This document shows positions 2 through 27,646 of a stretch of 29,642 bases of DNA, piece after piece. The notes beneath the pieces are model-generated. The model searched no databases, was not told where the DNA came from, and saw nothing but the letters and a program-made list of their open reading frames with translations. Each line of letters starts with the position of its first letter. The first letter of the stretch is position 1. The translations under genes were made by a program, and so were the position numbers. Where the stretch lies: the IMG/VR virus record IMGVR_UViG_3300025093_000086, positions 1-29,642 of that record. One strand, written 5' to 3'. Source of the DNA: a virus.

Positions 2-565
2 GATGCTAAAGCATTATTAAGTATTCAGATTACAGCTTTAACTGACCCTAGCAGTAGAAAAGAAAATGGTGGTTATTATACTTTAATGGATGATGTAGCC
101 GCTTCTATTGATGGTGTAGATATACCAGTTACTACTAAAAAAGAAAGTGAAATACAAGAAATACTTGATGAATGGGTACCTGAACATTTACATGGTAATT
201 TTAATCTAGCTGATGAAGCTGCTAAGTTAAGAAAGAATCCTTTATATAAAACAGAGTTTAAAGAAAAAGCTAAGAATGCTAGATTTGCAGAATACTCTAT
301 GTACGATAAAGATATAGATTGGAAAACTATTGAAGCTAGAGGTGTTGCTTTAGTTGAATCTTCTTGGGGTATTGTTCCAAAATCTGATAATCCTATTCTT
401 AAAGAAGTTATAAAAATGAATGATACTAATAAAGCAAATGAATATTTAAGAACTGAAGGATTAAAAGTAGGTAATGAAAAAGTTAAGAATGATTATGCTA
501 AAGCTGTAGCTCAAGCATATGGTGATAACATAGTTAGAAGTGCAGGATTTACAGAAGGTAGATAA
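2..565 (+). CDS. C-terminal part of an unrecognised virion-module protein (5' end outside window)
   Basis: The frame is open from base 2 to the stop at 563-565, so the ATG at 86 is probably internal and the real start lies to the left. About 187 codons are visible. The product is hydrophilic, rich in Lys, Glu and Ala, and probably helical, with no membrane segment and no motif I recognise. Its stop overlaps the next ATG (TAATG), so the two genes are translationally coupled. In tailed phages the place two genes before scaffold and capsid is often taken by the portal or a portal-associated protein, and this could be the tail end of such a protein. That is position only, not homology. Confidence 0.7.
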   Translation, partial: DAKALLSIQITALTDPSSRKENGGYYTLMDDVAASIDGVDIPVTTKKESEIQEILDEWVPEHLHGNFNLADEAAKLRKNPLYKTEFKEKAKNARFAEYSMYDKDIDWKTIEARGVALVESSWGIVPKSDNPILKEVIKMNDTNKANEYLRTEGLKVGNEKVKNDYAKAVAQAYGDNIVRSAGFTEGR

Positions 566-1509
566 TGGTTAAAATATATAGAAAAGACTTAGATGGTTTC
601 CATGATGTATCTGCTTCAAGAGCTAAAGAATTAGTAGAAGGAGCAGGATATTCTTATTCACCTGTAGATTATGACCCAGGAGGAAATGCTACTAGTGCTC
701 CTAGTGCTAATGATTTATCAGAAGGAATTGCTAGAGCTAATCAATTATTTAACTTTATGCCTGAAACTATTAAGAATAAGTTTGCTCAATCTTGGGTTAA
801 ATTTGGAGATGTTGAATTAGCTAAATCAGAAGTTAGACAAACTCCTGAATGGGAAAAAGAGTTTGGATATTTAAGAAGAAAAACAGATGGTTCTTTAATT
901 ATGTCTGAGTTAGAAGCAGTAGCTGCTAAGGCCTCTTATAGAGAAACACTAGGAGAAGTAGGTATTGTAGATACTTCAGGATTTGAAGAACAGTTTAATG
1001 AATTAATACAAGGTGAAGTTTCTGCTGCAGAGTTTCAACAAAGAATAGATACTGTATGGGGTGCTGTTAAAAATAATATACCTCAAGTAGAGTCAATGTT
1101 TAGAGACCAATACAATATAGATTCAGATACTCCTACTATATTTGCTGCTTTAATTAATCCAGATATACAAGATAAGTTATTAGCTGGTGATTTACAATCA
1201 TTAAGTATTGGAGCTGAAGCTAAAGCTGCTGGATTTAATAGAAGTTTTGCTAGATTTGAAGCACTTAGAAAAGCTGGTTTAGACCAAGGAAGAGCTAGAC
1301 AGTTATATCAAGGAGCTCAACCATTACTTGAAAGAGCTGGTGCAGTAGGCAGTGCTTTAGGAATTGAACAATTAGAAGCTGCTGCTATAGGTGACATAAA
1401 AGCTCAACAGCAAGTACAAAGAGCACAGTCAGAGATACTATCCGAAAGTAGTGTCGTATTAGGAGCTGCTAAAAAAGGTAAACAAGTTAGTGGACTTTTA
1501 GAAGAATAA
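565..1509 (+). CDS. Unrecognised helical protein upstream of the capsid genes
   Basis: A 314-aa protein coupled to the previous gene by a TAATG overlap. It has no signal peptide or membrane segment. Residues about 1-50 look like a small folded domain followed by a Gly/Ser/Ala linker. The rest is predicted mostly helical, with an Ala/Gln/Arg-rich C-terminal third (about 220-314) of the kind seen in virion internal or assembly proteins. There is no catalytic motif. Codons are strongly A/T-ending, unlike the capsid gene downstream. From its place directly before scaffold and capsid I infer a structural or morphogenetic role, but I do not recognise the family. Confidence 0.75.
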   Translation: MVKIYRKDLDGFHDVSASRAKELVEGAGYSYSPVDYDPGGNATSAPSANDLSEGIARANQLFNFMPETIKNKFAQSWVKFGDVELAKSEVRQTPEWEKEFGYLRRKTDGSLIMSELEAVAAKASYRETLGEVGIVDTSGFEEQFNELIQGEVSAAEFQQRIDTVWGAVKNNIPQVESMFRDQYNIDSDTPTIFAALINPDIQDKLLAGDLQSLSIGAEAKAAGFNRSFARFEALRKAGLDQGRARQLYQGAQPLLERAGAVGSALGIEQLEAAAIGDIKAQQQVQRAQSEILSESSVVLGAAKKGKQVSGLLEE

Positions 1510-1518
1510 GTGTATAAT
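1491..1518 (+). promoter_or_regulatory. Promoter of the scaffold-capsid operon and its structured leader
   Basis: A perfect TATAAT at 1513-1518 lies just after the stop of the previous gene. A weak -35-like TGGACT is at 1491-1496 with a 16-nt spacer. Transcription would start near 1525, almost exactly where the first pseudoknot stem begins (1526). That makes the 1526-1717 region a 5' untranslated leader. Confidence 0.55.
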
Positions 1519-1525
1519 TAGGTTT

Positions 1526-1704
1526 AAGCGTTGCAAGGTCCGCTTTAAATGACCGCACAACAGCTTTCAGAGCCTGCGTAGAAAGCTTGTACTAAAACCG
1601 CAGAGTAAGGACTTAGGATTAAAAACCCTACCAGATTCTAAGTCAAGTGTGAAGGTAGGGCCGCAGCTAATTGCCACGGGATTAGTTTGTAAGGTAAAAC
1701 CGTG
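1526..1704 (+). ncRNA. Leader RNA of four consecutive H-type pseudoknots
   Basis: This gap has no credible gene and is visibly richer in G and C than its flanks. Pairings read by eye: PK1, 1526-1530 with 1541-1545 and its loop 1537-1540 with 1551-1554. PK2, 1562-1568 with 1581-1587 and loop CTGCG 1574-1578 with CGCAG 1599-1603. PK3, an 11-bp stem 1610-1620 with 1634-1644 (two G-U pairs) and loop CCCTACC 1626-1632 with GGTAGGG 1654-1660. PK4, 1665-1671 with 1681-1687 and loop CACGG 1675-1679 with CCGTG 1700-1704. PK4 ends two bases before the Shine-Dalgarno GGAGG (1706-1710). An alternative pairing, CCAC 1674-1677 with GTGG 1704-1707, would hide part of it. It could be a cis-regulator, a riboswitch, or an RNA acting in trans (packaging or stability). 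I cannot match it to a named family. Confidence 0.7.
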
Positions 1705-1717
1705 TGGAGGTACGATT

Positions 1718-2179
1718 ATGAGTGAATTTGACGGTATAGAAAATACTGGCGTAAAAGCAATGCGTGAAACCATTGATAGAAAGAATGAAGAGATAGCTAA
1801 ATTACAAGCTGAACTTCATGAACACAAGGATGCAAAGCTAAATTCTGTTGTAAAACAGATAGGTTTAAATCCAGACAATGGTTTTGGTAAAGCATTAAAA
1901 CAAGTGTATAACGGTGATGCAACAGTTGAAGCCGTTAGTGAGTTTGCTAAGACTGAGTATAGTTATGAGCCAACAGGAGGACTTCAGGAAATCACACAGA
2001 CTGAACTCCCACCAGTAGTTCAAGACGATGCTAGGGCTAGAGTAGCTTCACTTGATGCAAATTCTACAAGTGATGTACCAGGAGATGTTCTGAACGACCT
2101 TCAGGAAATCATTGCAAAGGGTACTCCGAAAGATAGTATCCGAGCAAAACTTACTCTGATGGAAAACGAAAAGAACTAA
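1718..2179 (+). CDS. Probable capsid scaffolding protein
   Basis: A 153-aa acidic protein directly before the major capsid gene. The start is set by GGAGG at 1706-1710, seven bases before ATG 1718; an upstream in-frame GTG at 1649 lies inside pseudoknot PK3 and has no ribosome site. Residues about 13-40 form a heptad-like coiled coil rich in Glu, Lys, Leu and Ala. A segment with GLNPDNGFGKAL and a YNGD motif (about 50-68) follows, then a flexible middle and a short helical C-terminus. This layout, size and position match scaffold proteins of tailed phages, which bind capsid protein inside the procapsid and leave on maturation. More codons end in C or G than in the upstream genes, suggesting high expression. 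Confidence 0.75.
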   Translation: MSEFDGIENTGVKAMRETIDRKNEEIAKLQAELHEHKDAKLNSVVKQIGLNPDNGFGKALKQVYNGDATVEAVSEFAKTEYSYEPTGGLQEITQTELPPVVQDDARARVASLDANSTSDVPGDVLNDLQEIIAKGTPKDSIRAKLTLMENEKN

Positions 2180-2218: not shown

Positions 2219-3343
2219 ATGGCAAGCATAAGCTTGACAAACAATGCTATTTACTCACAAAATGTAAATAACTTTACAGGTGAGTTATTCCGTGTAGGTG
2301 GTCAAAGAACTCCTTTCTTATCTGCAACTGGTGGATTAAACGGAGGTAAGGTTTTACAATCTACTTTCTGGCAAATCCAAGCAGCTGACAGTCACACAGT
2401 TTCTTCTGAGCCAACAAAAGGCCAAGAAGGTGCACAACCAACTGAATATCTCGGAAGAGATAGAGTTGCTTTCACAGGTGTGACACAGGTATTCCACAAA
2501 GGTGTAAAGATGACCTATACTGCAATGGCAACTTTTCAACATCAAAATCCATTTGACTTGAGTGCAAATATTATTAACTCATCAGATGGTGATGGAACAG
2601 TTACAGCAGCTGATAAATTATCATTAGCTGGTGGTAACCCAATTGTTGATGAGTTCTCAGAACAACTAACTCTTGCTCTTGAAAAAGTAGCTCGTGAAGT
2701 TGAATGGTTCGCATTCAATGGTACTTTTGCCGATGGTGCTAATACAACACCAGGTTCAGGTACTAGAGAAATGAGAGGACTTTCAGAATATATTGCATTA
2801 AATGCTAATGCTAATAACTCTGCTGCTCCTACTGCTACTGGAGGTAACATTTATTATAATGATGCTTCTGGTGACGGTACAGGTGCTGCTAGAGTCCTTT
2901 CATGGGATGCAATCGCAGGTGCTATGAAGCGTCTATATGATGCTCACGCACCAATGATTCAACCAGTGCTTTGTGTAAATCCAAAGCAACTACTTGACCT
3001 TAACAAGGAATTGTTAGAAGGTAATGTAGGTATTACTGGAGCTATCCTACCAAGAGATAGAAGTATCGCTGGTATCGACATTGATACTATCGTTACACCA
3101 TTCGGTGCAATTGGTCTTATGGTCATCGACCCTAACATCATGCCTGCCGATGAAGCATATATCCTTGACTTTGCTTTCATACAACCAGTATTCACAAATA
3201 TCCCAGGATATGGTACTGTGTTCGTGAGAGACTTAGACCAAGACGATTATGCAAGAGTTGGAAAAGCAGTTTACATGGAAATGGGATATGACTTTGGTCC
3301 GCCAAGTTATCATCTCAAGTTCATTGATGCTGATTCAGCATAA
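2219..3343 (+). CDS. Major capsid protein (SU10/DUF5309-like)
   Basis: A 374-aa protein with a clear GGAGG ribosome site seven bases before the ATG. The N-terminus is followed by a region around residues 70-110 with FTGVTQVFHKGVKMTYTA, resembling the capsid proteins of the SU10 major head protein (DUF5309) group, an HK97-fold family. The C-terminus (YMEMGYDFGPPSYHLKFI) is typical of a capsid end strand. Codon use shifts to C-ending codons (TTC, ATC, GAC, AAC) compared with flanking genes, as expected for the most abundant virion protein. It follows the scaffold gene and precedes a hairpin and a new promoter. The family name is from memory of sequence style; the capsid role is well supported by context. 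Confidence 0.82.
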   Translation: MASISLTNNAIYSQNVNNFTGELFRVGGQRTPFLSATGGLNGGKVLQSTFWQIQAADSHTVSSEPTKGQEGAQPTEYLGRDRVAFTGVTQVFHKGVKMTYTAMATFQHQNPFDLSANIINSSDGDGTVTAADKLSLAGGNPIVDEFSEQLTLALEKVAREVEWFAFNGTFADGANTTPGSGTREMRGLSEYIALNANANNSAAPTATGGNIYYNDASGDGTGAARVLSWDAIAGAMKRLYDAHAPMIQPVLCVNPKQLLDLNKELLEGNVGITGAILPRDRSIAGIDIDTIVTPFGAIGLMVIDPNIMPADEAYILDFAFIQPVFTNIPGYGTVFVRDLDQDDYARVGKAVYMEMGYDFGPPSYHLKFIDADSA

Positions 3344-3361
3344 ATAAAAAATTGAAGATTA

Positions 3362-3389
3362 GGGTGGGAATCCACCTCCTGCCCTTTTC
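3362..3389 (+). terminator. Hairpin after the capsid gene, probable attenuator or partial terminator
   Basis: GGTGG 3363-3367 pairs with CCACC 3372-3376 around a GAAT loop, and a CCC then TTTTCTT stretch lies a few bases further on. An outer GAAGA/TCTTC pairing (from 3353) may enclose it. The T-run is not directly at the stem base, so termination may be partial. A new promoter follows at once. Confidence 0.45.
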
Positions 3390-3392
3390 TTC

Positions 3393-3401
3393 TGCTATAG
3401 T
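3393..3401 (+). promoter_or_regulatory. Extended -10 promoter, near-leaderless
   Basis: TGCTATAGT: an extended -10 (TGn plus TATAGT at 3396-3401). Only 9 bases separate the -10 from the ATG at 3411, so the transcript would start within a few bases of the start codon. The same nine-base element recurs on the - strand at 23347-23355, also just before a start codon. Confidence 0.5.
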
Positions 3402-23355: not shown

Positions 23356-23393
23356 GGATATAGATATATGTAAAAGAATTTAGAAGAAAGTAG

Positions 23394-23468
23394 TGGAGGT
23401 GGCCGGAATCGAACCGGCGTTAGGATAAACAACGGGTAGCTGTTATATCCACTAACCTGGACACCCCC
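23394..23468 (-). tRNA. tRNA or tRNA-like RNA with alanine-type acceptor
   Basis: 75 nt. Acceptor stem of 7 bp (23468-23462 with 23401-23395), discriminator A at 23394, CCA not encoded. The T arm is perfect: GCCGG and CCGGC around TTCGATT. The acceptor has a G3-U70 pair plus A73, the known alanine identity elements. The D arm is poor (3 bp TCC/GGA with no connector bases). The anticodon arm AACAG/TTGTT has loop CTACCCG, which would give anticodon ACC (glycine codons). The arm extends by GGATA/TATCC to 10 bp with one bulged base, if the D stem opens. That is like the long arm that replaces the anticodon stem in tmRNA. So either an odd tRNA or a tRNA-like domain. Confidence 0.7.
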
Positions 23469-23477
23469 AACTGAGAT

Positions 23478-23539
23478 GGAATACCGTGCTTAAGGTCGGA
23501 AAGGAGTACAACCCACTGTTGCCAGTTGCACGGTACTCC
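23478..23539 (-). ncRNA. Compact three-way-junction RNA with anti-Shine-Dalgarno-like loop
   Basis: Read on the - strand: P1 is a 12-bp stem (23539-23528 with 23489-23478, one G-U). P2 is ACTG/CAGT with a GCAA GNRA tetraloop (23526-23515). P3 is GGGTTG/CGACCT (23514-23509 with 23498-23493) with the 10-nt loop TACTCCTTTC. Only one A and TAA are unpaired at the junction. The P3 loop resembles the 3' end of 16S rRNA and would pair with AAAGGAG ribosome sites. It lies between the CobT-like gene and the tRNA-like RNA. A competing pairing uses GTACTCC. No known family is recognised; hammerhead core bases are absent. Confidence 0.6.
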
Positions 23540-23552
23540 TATACCTACCTTT

Positions 23553-25064
23553 CTATACTAGCTGATTTAATGCTAAAGCAAACTTCTTTACTTCATCAAT
23601 ATTAGCTAGTCTGGTTATTCCTGAACGCTTGCATATTTCTATACAATCTTTCAATAAGTTTTCATTATTTTGATTATGTAAACCAAAGACATACATATCA
23701 CTTACCCATATTCTTTTAGGTGGTTGTTTAGATAACCATTTCAAAGCAGGGCCATCAACTAAGTTACCTCCGCCTGTATATTTATCTAAGTATTCTTGAT
23801 TTACTCTCTTACCATTCTGTCCTATTATTCTTAACGAACCTGTATCCCATGCACCTGCATAGTTATCGTTATACATAGCAATAGTAACAGCTGGTAGTAA
23901 TTGCATTATATCTAGGATATCTTGTCCTGAAAAATGCATTGAACCTGATGCGTCAATTAATATTGTTCCACCATATACTCTTTGTTTTTGTTTGAATACT
24001 TTCTTATCCACACACCAACGATTCATATACTTAGGATTAACACCATAGTCCATTGGCCTATATTCTCTACCACCTTTTATTTTTGATTGCATATTCACAT
24101 CAAGATATGGTTTAAATATCTCCATTTTTCCCCACTTACCCATATTATTTGGTTGTGGTTTGTAGTTCATATTACCATCATTAGTAGCATTAAATATCTG
24201 CTCTTTGTTACGCTGCATTAACTCATCTAATGTTTCCATTCCATCCGCATCGCCTTCACCATCTTGTTCAGTAGATGCACTGTTAGCTTTACGATTGGCA
24301 TTCATGGCTTGTTCTTTAGCTTGTTTAGCTTTTCTAGCTTTTTCAAGAACTTCATGTTCTTTAGGCTTGTCATTGAACTCATCCATTAATTTGTTGAGTA
24401 TTATTGCAGCTTGTCTAGTTTTATTGTAGCCAGTAGGTTTTCTATAGTAACCTCTGCTATAAGTTATTTTTTGATATAACTTATTAGCTTGTCTCATAGC
24501 CCATTGTAACTGACCTAACCTTAGTCTGGTCATTTGGTCTGGACTACCCGGTTCTATATTATGTACTTGTTCCATTACTTGTTTAATAGATTCAAACTCT
24601 GGACCACCAATACTCTGACTATAATAACTTCCACCTTGTCCTGGTCTCATATTCATTAATATCCATGCAGTGATATCAAATATTGAACCGTTATACAATA
24701 TGTCTAAAGTTCTTTCTTGAAACTTTGGTTCACATACTGTCCATTCATCTAACCATAAATCTTTAATAGATAAATTATAATTAACACGAACTTCTTCGCA
24801 TATTTCTATACAAATTTCACTTTCATATTCTTTTAATTTACCTACAGTTTTAGGACTCCACTTAGCATGGCCAAGTTCATGTCTTCTAATCATTTTGTTA
24901 TGGTCAGCACCACATAAATCACATACATCACCATTTGTAGGGACATACATTTCTTTAGACAATACAGATGTTCTAGGTTGTTTTTCGTCCTCAAATATTT
25001 TCCAAGGCCCCTCTCCAGAAGCTATTTCTGGAAAGGGTGTCTTGTTATTCTTCTTCTTGTACAT
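23553..25064 (-). CDS. CobT-like protein: zincin motif plus VWA (MIDAS) domain
   Basis: A 503-aa protein. N-terminal part: CxxC at 48-51, HELGH 62-66 and EEVRVN 90-95, a metallopeptidase-like layout known from VWA partners of MoxR-type ATPases. The middle is helical, then an acidic/Gly/Asp low-complexity linker (about 258-280). C-terminal VWA domain: DASGSM at 371-376 is a complete MIDAS motif, GGGN near 430 and VSD near 455 complete the metal site. The family works with an AAA+ ATPase as a chelatase or remodelling machine; CobT is the cobaltochelatase example. In phages the target is not known. It overlaps the ATPase gene by 20 bases. Confidence 0.8.
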   Translation of the reverse strand: MYKKKNNKTPFPEIASGEGPWKIFEDEKQPRTSVLSKEMYVPTNGDVCDLCGADHNKMIRRHELGHAKWSPKTVGKLKEYESEICIEICEEVRVNYNLSIKDLWLDEWTVCEPKFQERTLDILYNGSIFDITAWILMNMRPGQGGSYYSQSIGGPEFESIKQVMEQVHNIEPGSPDQMTRLRLGQLQWAMRQANKLYQKITYSRGYYRKPTGYNKTRQAAIILNKLMDEFNDKPKEHEVLEKARKAKQAKEQAMNANRKANSASTEQDGEGDADGMETLDELMQRNKEQIFNATNDGNMNYKPQPNNMGKWGKMEIFKPYLDVNMQSKIKGGREYRPMDYGVNPKYMNRWCVDKKVFKQKQRVYGGTILIDASGSMHFSGQDILDIMQLLPAVTIAMYNDNYAGAWDTGSLRIIGQNGKRVNQEYLDKYTGGGNLVDGPALKWLSKQPPKRIWVSDMYVFGLHNQNNENLLKDCIEICKRSGITRLANIDEVKKFALALNQLV

Positions 25065-27389: not shown

Positions 27390-27417
27390 ACATTTCCTTT
27401 CCCTATCTTTTTTTATA

Positions 27418-27629
27418 TAGATAGCTTGTAGCGTACAGTTTCAGTCATAATGCAAACAGGGGAGTCACACACTCTTACTCCTATACACTACAAGCTACCT
27501 ACTATAGATAGCTTGTAACACACACATTGGCTCATAGAGTCACTGTCTTTTACTTTCTGCAGAAAGCGTATGTGCTACAAGCTACCTACAATATATTCGT
27601 GGATATACTTCTGGTTTACGATATTGTAG
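27418..27629 (-). ncRNA. Untranslated leader with three stem-loops, two sharing the same arms
   Basis: There is no credible gene between 27390 and 27646. On the - strand: stem III, 27629-27621 with 27594-27586 (9 bp). Stem II, 27588-27576 with 27517-27505 (13 bp, one G-U, with a 14-bp palindrome CTTTCTGCAGAAAG at 27553-27566 in its loop). Stem I, 27501-27484 with 27435-27418 (18 bp, two G-U). The arms of I and II are near copies of each other (core TAGGTAGCTTGTAG). The arm differences make G-U pairs in the - strand RNA but A-C mismatches in the + strand RNA. That points to a function of the - strand RNA. It precedes the gene at 27186-27389. Confidence 0.65.
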
Positions 27630-27646
27630 GATAGCTTTACTAACTG

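Follow-up and report, generated by a model that had tools for sequence, protein, structure and literature searches.

Covariation points to a conserved array of tandem pseudoknots in the leader of a phage scaffold-capsid mRNA

The scaffold-capsid locus

The window analysed here is a single IMG/VR virus record of 29,642 bases, taken at its full length. It carries a leader region that begins after the stop of an upstream gene and is followed by genes for a scaffold-like protein and a major capsid protein; a sigma-70-like promoter site predicts a transcription start at about the first base of the leader (Table 1). The label 'scaffold' rests on position and analogy, the product being named for its place before the capsid gene, as in phage Bernal13, and its match (phrog_7813) is to a family without known function. 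A GTG frame from 1649 was considered as coding sequence within the leader and rejected, since it is not kept as coding (indels occur among leaders), and the start was placed at the ATG at 1718.

Table 1. Features of the scaffold-capsid locus, in coordinates of the window
Feature	Position	Strand	Details
Upstream gene	565-1509		leader region begins after its stop
Promoter-like, sigma-70-like site	1491..1518	+	TGGACT-16 nt-TATAAT, -10 at 1513-1518; 10/12 matches
Predicted transcription start	~1524-1526	+	inferred from the -10
Pseudoknot leader	1526-1704	+	four H-type pseudoknots
PK1	1526..1556	+	AAGCG 1526-1530/CGCUU 1541-1545; GGUC 1537-1540/GACC 1551-1554
PK2	1562..1603	+	AGCUUUC 1562-1568/GAAAGCU 1581-1587; CUGCG 1574-1578/CGCAG 1599-1603
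PK3	1610..1660	+	GACUUAGGAUU 1610-1620/GAUUCUAAGUC 1634-1644; CCCUACC 1626-1632/GGUAGGG 1654-1660
PK4	1665..1704	+	AGCUAAUU 1665-1672/GAUUAGUU 1680-1687; CACGG 1675-1679/CCGUG 1700-1704
Shine-Dalgarno GGAGG	1706-1710	+	outside every conserved helix
Scaffold-like gene	1718..2179	+	153 aa, acidic; phrog_7813
Major capsid protein gene	2219..3343	+	SU10_MCP PF17236, E 3e-40; phrog_1328
Intrinsic-terminator-like hairpin, 3' of capsid gene	3361..3393	+	terminator-like hairpin in 68/77 loci vs 10/231 shuffles
Extended -10 promoter of next genes	3393..3401	+	TGCTATAGT; -10-like site in 70/77 loci

Behind the capsid gene stand a conserved terminator-like hairpin and a new extended -10 promoter, the latter about 10 nt ahead of the first ATG of the next genes, so that a leader could not fit into the next unit. 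Given this terminator and promoter, the leader RNA should head a short scaffold-capsid mRNA and mainly serve those two genes. Within the terminator, at 3361-3385, a TCCACC in the upper part is kept in nearly all relatives despite a changing stem. Its ACCTCC could pair with GGAGGT of the leader, which may be chance or may mark a protein site.

Four pseudoknots in the window

Eight strands between 1526 and 1704 pair as the sequence-only reading had described, nested as four H-type pseudoknots in the order given in Table 1. PK1 was said to have no base between its stems, and this is so; its stem 2 is further extended by G1533-C1556 and C1534-G1555. For PK3, described as an 11-bp hairpin with a 7-bp loop helix, both helices are present, the stem with some G-U pairs, but only about 6 of its 11 bp are conserved in relatives. 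After PK4 a single U separates the array from GGAGG, and the array ends 13 bases from the scaffold ATG.

The best chain of non-overlapping H-type pseudoknots, computed with nearest-neighbour stacks, scores 85.1 in the leader against a mean of 35.6 and a maximum of 61.0 in 400 dinucleotide shuffles (0/400 as high). Across the rest of the window, on both strands, no scanned 183-nt stretch exceeds the chain score of the leader. The nested minimum free energy of the leader is unremarkable (z -0.45); this is uninformative as a test, because a nested model cannot represent pseudoknots.

Other RNA-like elements lie elsewhere in the window, on the minus strand. At 23391-23560 a GC-rich non-coding stretch contains a candidate H-type pseudoknot (GGAGUAC/GUACUCC and CCGUGC/GCACGG). 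Behind the knot comes a compact 3' end that resembles a tRNA, having a T-arm and an acceptor of the alanine type, with G3-U70, whose last bases are ACUA. The stretch gives a sub-threshold tmRNA match (16.1 bits, E 1.3e-4), nothing in ARAGORN and an 82-nt fold of z -2.9; a 91% identical copy occurs in L438, and the exact 3' end in two IMG/VR contigs. Either an attachment site or a tRNA-like RNA of the phage could lie here. At 27390-27646 two long imperfect hairpins are formed from repeats of TAGGTAGCTTGTAG / CTACAAGCTATCTATA, with similar stretches in the related loci L446 and L441; these are possibly a repeat element or a regulatory RNA.

Distribution and leader classes

A search with the capsid protein of the window yielded 80 close IMG/VR loci, and an alignment of divergent capsids 80 more, many of them on the same contigs; the locus set was also fetched in part by leader patterns, and the capsid-based searches are independent of the leader. 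Among 186 distinct regions upstream of capsid loci, a leader is found in all 185 that belong to the phage group (175 assigned by class-specific patterns and ten by eye, with only aligned ones counted pair by pair below). The sole region without one is that of phage Bernal13, an outgroup with 29% capsid identity and a 68-nt gap before its scaffold gene. Being present in every related phage examined, the leader is probably important to this abundant marine phage group. All class-specific leaders with long enough flanks have the same upstream gene on one side and the scaffold-capsid pair on the other, and none lies elsewhere; four long related contigs contain no other convincing tandem-knot leader in intergenic DNA on the transcribed strand. 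A degenerate PK1 pattern run over IMG/VR was set aside, as many of the matches listed were chance ones in coding DNA.

The host is probably actinobacterial, as judged from the hosts of isolated relatives and a genome bin. A DNA-level search of annotated phages found no relatives; at the protein level the capsid has relatives of at most 29% identity in mycobacterial and propionibacterial phages, and the isolated relatives infect Mycobacterium and Propionibacterium. The only genome matches come from a single Actinomycetota bin, in two contigs that could be phage DNA binned with it.

The leaders fall into at least five sequence classes, with four knots in A (the class of the window) and D, and three in B, C and E. 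Class D (L069, L111) builds its four knots from different stems, class E (L129, L138, L155, L194) has three knots read by eye, and L417 carries a version of its own, a lone class F, likewise read by eye. One member of class B, L206, has an entirely different PK1 (CACUG/CAGUG with GAUAG/CUAUC). The part most recognisable between classes is PK2, whose loop often contains CCUAC, followed by an A-rich loop 3 and GUAA.

The placement of the array is regular at both ends. From the -10 to stem 1 of PK1 the distance is 8-9 nt in class A (61 of 72 leaders), 6-7 nt in class B (50 of 51) and 6 nt in class C (all 51), a spacing by which PK1 should begin at about +1 in these three classes. Between the last knot and the ribosome site there is one base in class A and several in classes B and C, and the Shine-Dalgarno is outside the conserved knots in every aligned class. 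As a separate observation on these promoters, some of classes B and D (L069, L111, L048, L213) have the palindrome CCACTATATATAGTGG or a similar one between -35 and -10, which is missing from the promoter of the window and is probably an operator for a phage regulator.

Covariation

Compensatory changes in relatives, on which the sequence-only reading had staked its structure beforehand, are present. The class A alignment comprises 60 distinct leaders and 44 pairs in 8 helices; 97.2% of pair cells hold, 22 pairs have changed on both sides, and there are 181 double-change cells against 38.9 in shuffles (0/500), a control that ignores phylogeny, so that this count and those of the other classes are strong but are not probabilities. 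When partners are shifted, as a slide control, pairing drops to 31-40%. The other large classes, each with three knots, behave similarly: in class C (49 distinct leaders) 98.4% of cells are paired, with 133 double-change cells against 34.5 in shuffles (0/500), and in class B (48 leaders) 96.6% are paired, with 50 against 14.6 (0/500), PK2 varying little there because the search pattern fixed it, and stem 1 of PK1 being left uncounted owing to alignment shifts.

Within class A the clearest covariation is in PK4, where all 7 counted pairs of stem 1 covary, as do 3 of the 5 in stem 2 (UA41/AU19, AU41/CG19 and UA41/AU13/GC6), which occurs as CACGG/CCGUG, CUAUG/CAUAG and CACAG/CUGUG. The loop helix of PK3 shows double changes in 5 of its 7 pairs, and the central pair of PK2 stem 2 is divided AU45/GC15. 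PK1 covaries in stem 1 (GC58/AU2) and in the extension of stem 2 (CG58/AU2), and stem 2 itself reads GGUC/GACC in 60 of 60 leaders once anchored by hand, MAFFT having shifted four rows by one base. The slide controls and the three separate classes make it very unlikely that the covariation is an artefact and, on these comparisons, we conclude that the tandem-pseudoknot leader is a real, conserved RNA element. Together with the promoter spacing and the layout of the transcription unit, the covariation bears out the earlier proposal that the scaffold-capsid mRNA opens with a structured leader.

Possible functions of the leader

That proposal extended to a switch for capsid synthesis, with two alternative pairings as its states. 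Both fail conservation, leaving the switch unsupported: in CCAC/GTGG the last pair is A-G in 41 of 60 class A leaders, and with the second copy of CGCAG the central pair is A-C in 45 of 60. A packaging role, also suggested, finds no support, and the sensing of a metabolite is unlikely, since loops and stems are replaced wholesale between classes. We consider it very improbable that the leader works as a riboswitch for a metabolite or is processed into a stand-alone RNA with a task of its own (as a decoy or in packaging). Its compact knots do resemble small riboswitches, and the leader could be cut off; but no ligand pocket is conserved across classes, no conserved state sequesters the Shine-Dalgarno, which lies free of the knots in the aligned classes, and the leader has no Rfam match and no tRNA-like end. 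The two leading explanations are RNase resistance and the binding of a head protein, both of which had been among the roles first proposed.

We tentatively favour a reading, to which we give somewhat less than an even chance, in which the four-pseudoknot leader serves as 5'-end armour and as a translation platform for the scaffold-capsid mRNA. The first knot would tie up the 5' end of the transcript and so deny RppH, RNase E and RNase J a single-stranded end, and the further knots would stop 5'-to-3' degradation and hold other sequence off the ribosome site, single-stranded right after the last knot; the mRNA for the proteins that the phage needs most would in this way last long and be translated strongly. 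The model builds on the structure, conservation and position of the leader and on the layout of the transcription unit, all of which are shown here, and infers the start site, the stability of the message and the effect on translation. It is favoured because a knot takes in the predicted 5' end in each of the three large classes, the ribosome site stays free in the classes aligned, bulk proteins are encoded, and shape is kept despite replaced sequences. Replacement of stem sequences with the topology kept, including that of PK1 in L206, is what would be expected if it is the shape that counts and not the sequence. One 5' stem-loop is enough to stabilise an mRNA in some cases, and three or four knots therefore look excessive for armour; the conserved loop sequence of PK2 (CCUAC, the A-rich loop 3 and the GUAA after it) moreover suggests that something reads it. 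As to the enzymes, BsRppH of Bacillus requires at least two unpaired 5' nucleotides (PMC3997798), and mycobacteria possess both RNase E and RNase J, actinobacterial decay enzymes acting from the 5' end (PMC7509114). In T4, the gene 32 mRNA, with its leader pseudoknot, is the most stable of the T4 mRNAs (PMC3014915).

How the leader is inherited bears on the choice between protection and protein binding. Between leader classes, identity among the scaffold proteins is mostly about 25-40%. Only one scaffold of 184, that of L417, has its nearest neighbour in another leader class, against 13 of 145 capsids. The upstream gene matches leader class no less closely than the scaffold, with 1 of 174 discordant. 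In class A, similarity between leaders correlates with that between scaffolds at r 0.90 and with that between upstream genes at r 0.35; the corresponding values are 0.65 and 0.54 in class B and 0.60 and 0.53 in class C. These patterns suggest that leader and scaffold gene tend to move as one unit; linkage alone could be enough for this, yet it could also be the expected look of an RNA-protein partnership. In class A the leader appears to follow the scaffold gene in inheritance much more closely than the upstream gene, although both lie equally near, and this speaks against armour. Among the capsids, those of L226 and L335 are identical under class B and class C leaders, with scaffolds of different classes; judged from these sequences, recombination has taken place between the scaffold gene and the capsid gene in this group of marine phages.

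The main rival to armour, less probable in our estimate though far from negligible, is an autogenous operator, in which free scaffold (or capsid) protein would bind the array and shut off translation or speed the decay of its own mRNA. By analogy with the P22 scaffold and with T4 gp32, which acts on its own mRNA by way of a leader pseudoknot, scaffold synthesis might in this way be matched to assembly; the scaffold of P22 represses its own synthesis to that effect. The near-perfect agreement of leader class with scaffold clade, looser for the capsid, argues for such an operator, as do the class A correlations, the confinement of the RNA to this locus and the precedent of the T4 gene 32 leader pseudoknot (PMC3014915). 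Against this, the leader adjoins the scaffold gene, so that linkage could give the same pattern, the upstream gene agrees with leader class equally well, and in classes B and C the leader-upstream correlations nearly equal those with the scaffold; the scaffold proteins are also acidic (median net charge -9), which is mildly unfavourable, and the ribosome site is in no knot.

It is improbable, in our judgement, that the array is a ribosome-recruiting platform, docking on the 30S subunit beside the Shine-Dalgarno and raising initiation in the manner of a prokaryotic IRES-like standby site: the last knot is directly 5' of the ribosome site in every aligned class, but its sequence is wholly different between classes and no conserved ribosome-contact sequence is seen. 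Least probable of all is a processive antitermination element of the put or EAR kind, modifying RNA polymerase for late genes. This role would suit a structured RNA that opens what is probably a late transcript; however, no core sequence is conserved throughout the array, and the conserved terminator and fresh promoter right behind the capsid gene make antitermination unlikely, as the unit looks built to end there.

Comparison with known systems

The element appears to be new and undescribed. Rfam 15 gives no match in the window at gathering score, in 1450-1800 up to E 10 or in six relatives up to E 0.5, in line with the earlier remark that no family with such a layout was known. Within our literature search, which left most subscription journals outside, we found no paper on tandem-pseudoknot phage leaders, nor a description of any phage or bacterial mRNA leader with several different consecutive pseudoknots or with a layout kept while its sequences are replaced. 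We regard it as a real possibility, if short of an even chance, that the leader is an RNA device of a new class. On this reading three or four unrelated pseudoknots would make up a modular array, with selection acting on nothing but their number, order and geometry; the array would cap a phage structural mRNA, either resisting exonucleases or sensing assembly, and would pass from phage to phage along with its scaffold gene.

Several known RNAs share part of this architecture. Like the leader in classes A and D, tmRNA (RF00023) has four pseudoknots in one RNA, but classes B, C and E have three, and the element lies in an mRNA leader without a tag frame or tRNA-like domain; ARAGORN likewise finds no tmRNA in the window, upholding the view that the leader is not one. 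Several consecutive H-type knots in an untranslated region are found in the tobamovirus upstream domain and the picornavirus 5' UTR, which belong to RNA viruses of eukaryotes and show no homology to the present leader, here in the mRNA of a DNA phage. Among bacterial 5' mRNA stabilisers we know of none with tandem pseudoknots. The ompA, SP82 and aprE stabilisers and the 5' UTR of phage SW1 are leaders believed to shield a highly expressed mRNA at its 5' end (PMC7509114; PMC4762005), as proposed here, but they depend on stem-loops or ribosome binding. Type III antitoxin RNAs (ToxI, CptI) also place H-type pseudoknots head to tail on one transcript; theirs are tandem repeats cut by their toxin (PMC5086642), whereas here the knots differ in sequence and no toxin gene adjoins, the neighbours being the upstream gene, scaffold and capsid.

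In gene 32 of T4, T2 and RB69, as here, an H-type pseudoknot stands in the leader of the gene; it is conserved across some relatives, and the transcript is unusually stable (PMC3014915). That leader has a single knot lying 67 nt ahead of the start, and behind the knot an A+U-rich stretch that binds the repressor, whereas the present array, without homology to it, precedes a head gene and has three or four different knots, which reach from about +1 as far as the ribosome site. A pseudoknotted mRNA leader is of a known kind, and there is a fair chance that the tandem array is a kind of its own. The array makes it testable through which RNA element the synthesis of a phage scaffold might be controlled by the scaffold itself, and whether bacterial mRNAs gain from stacked pseudoknots the protection that resistant RNAs give in eukaryotic viruses.
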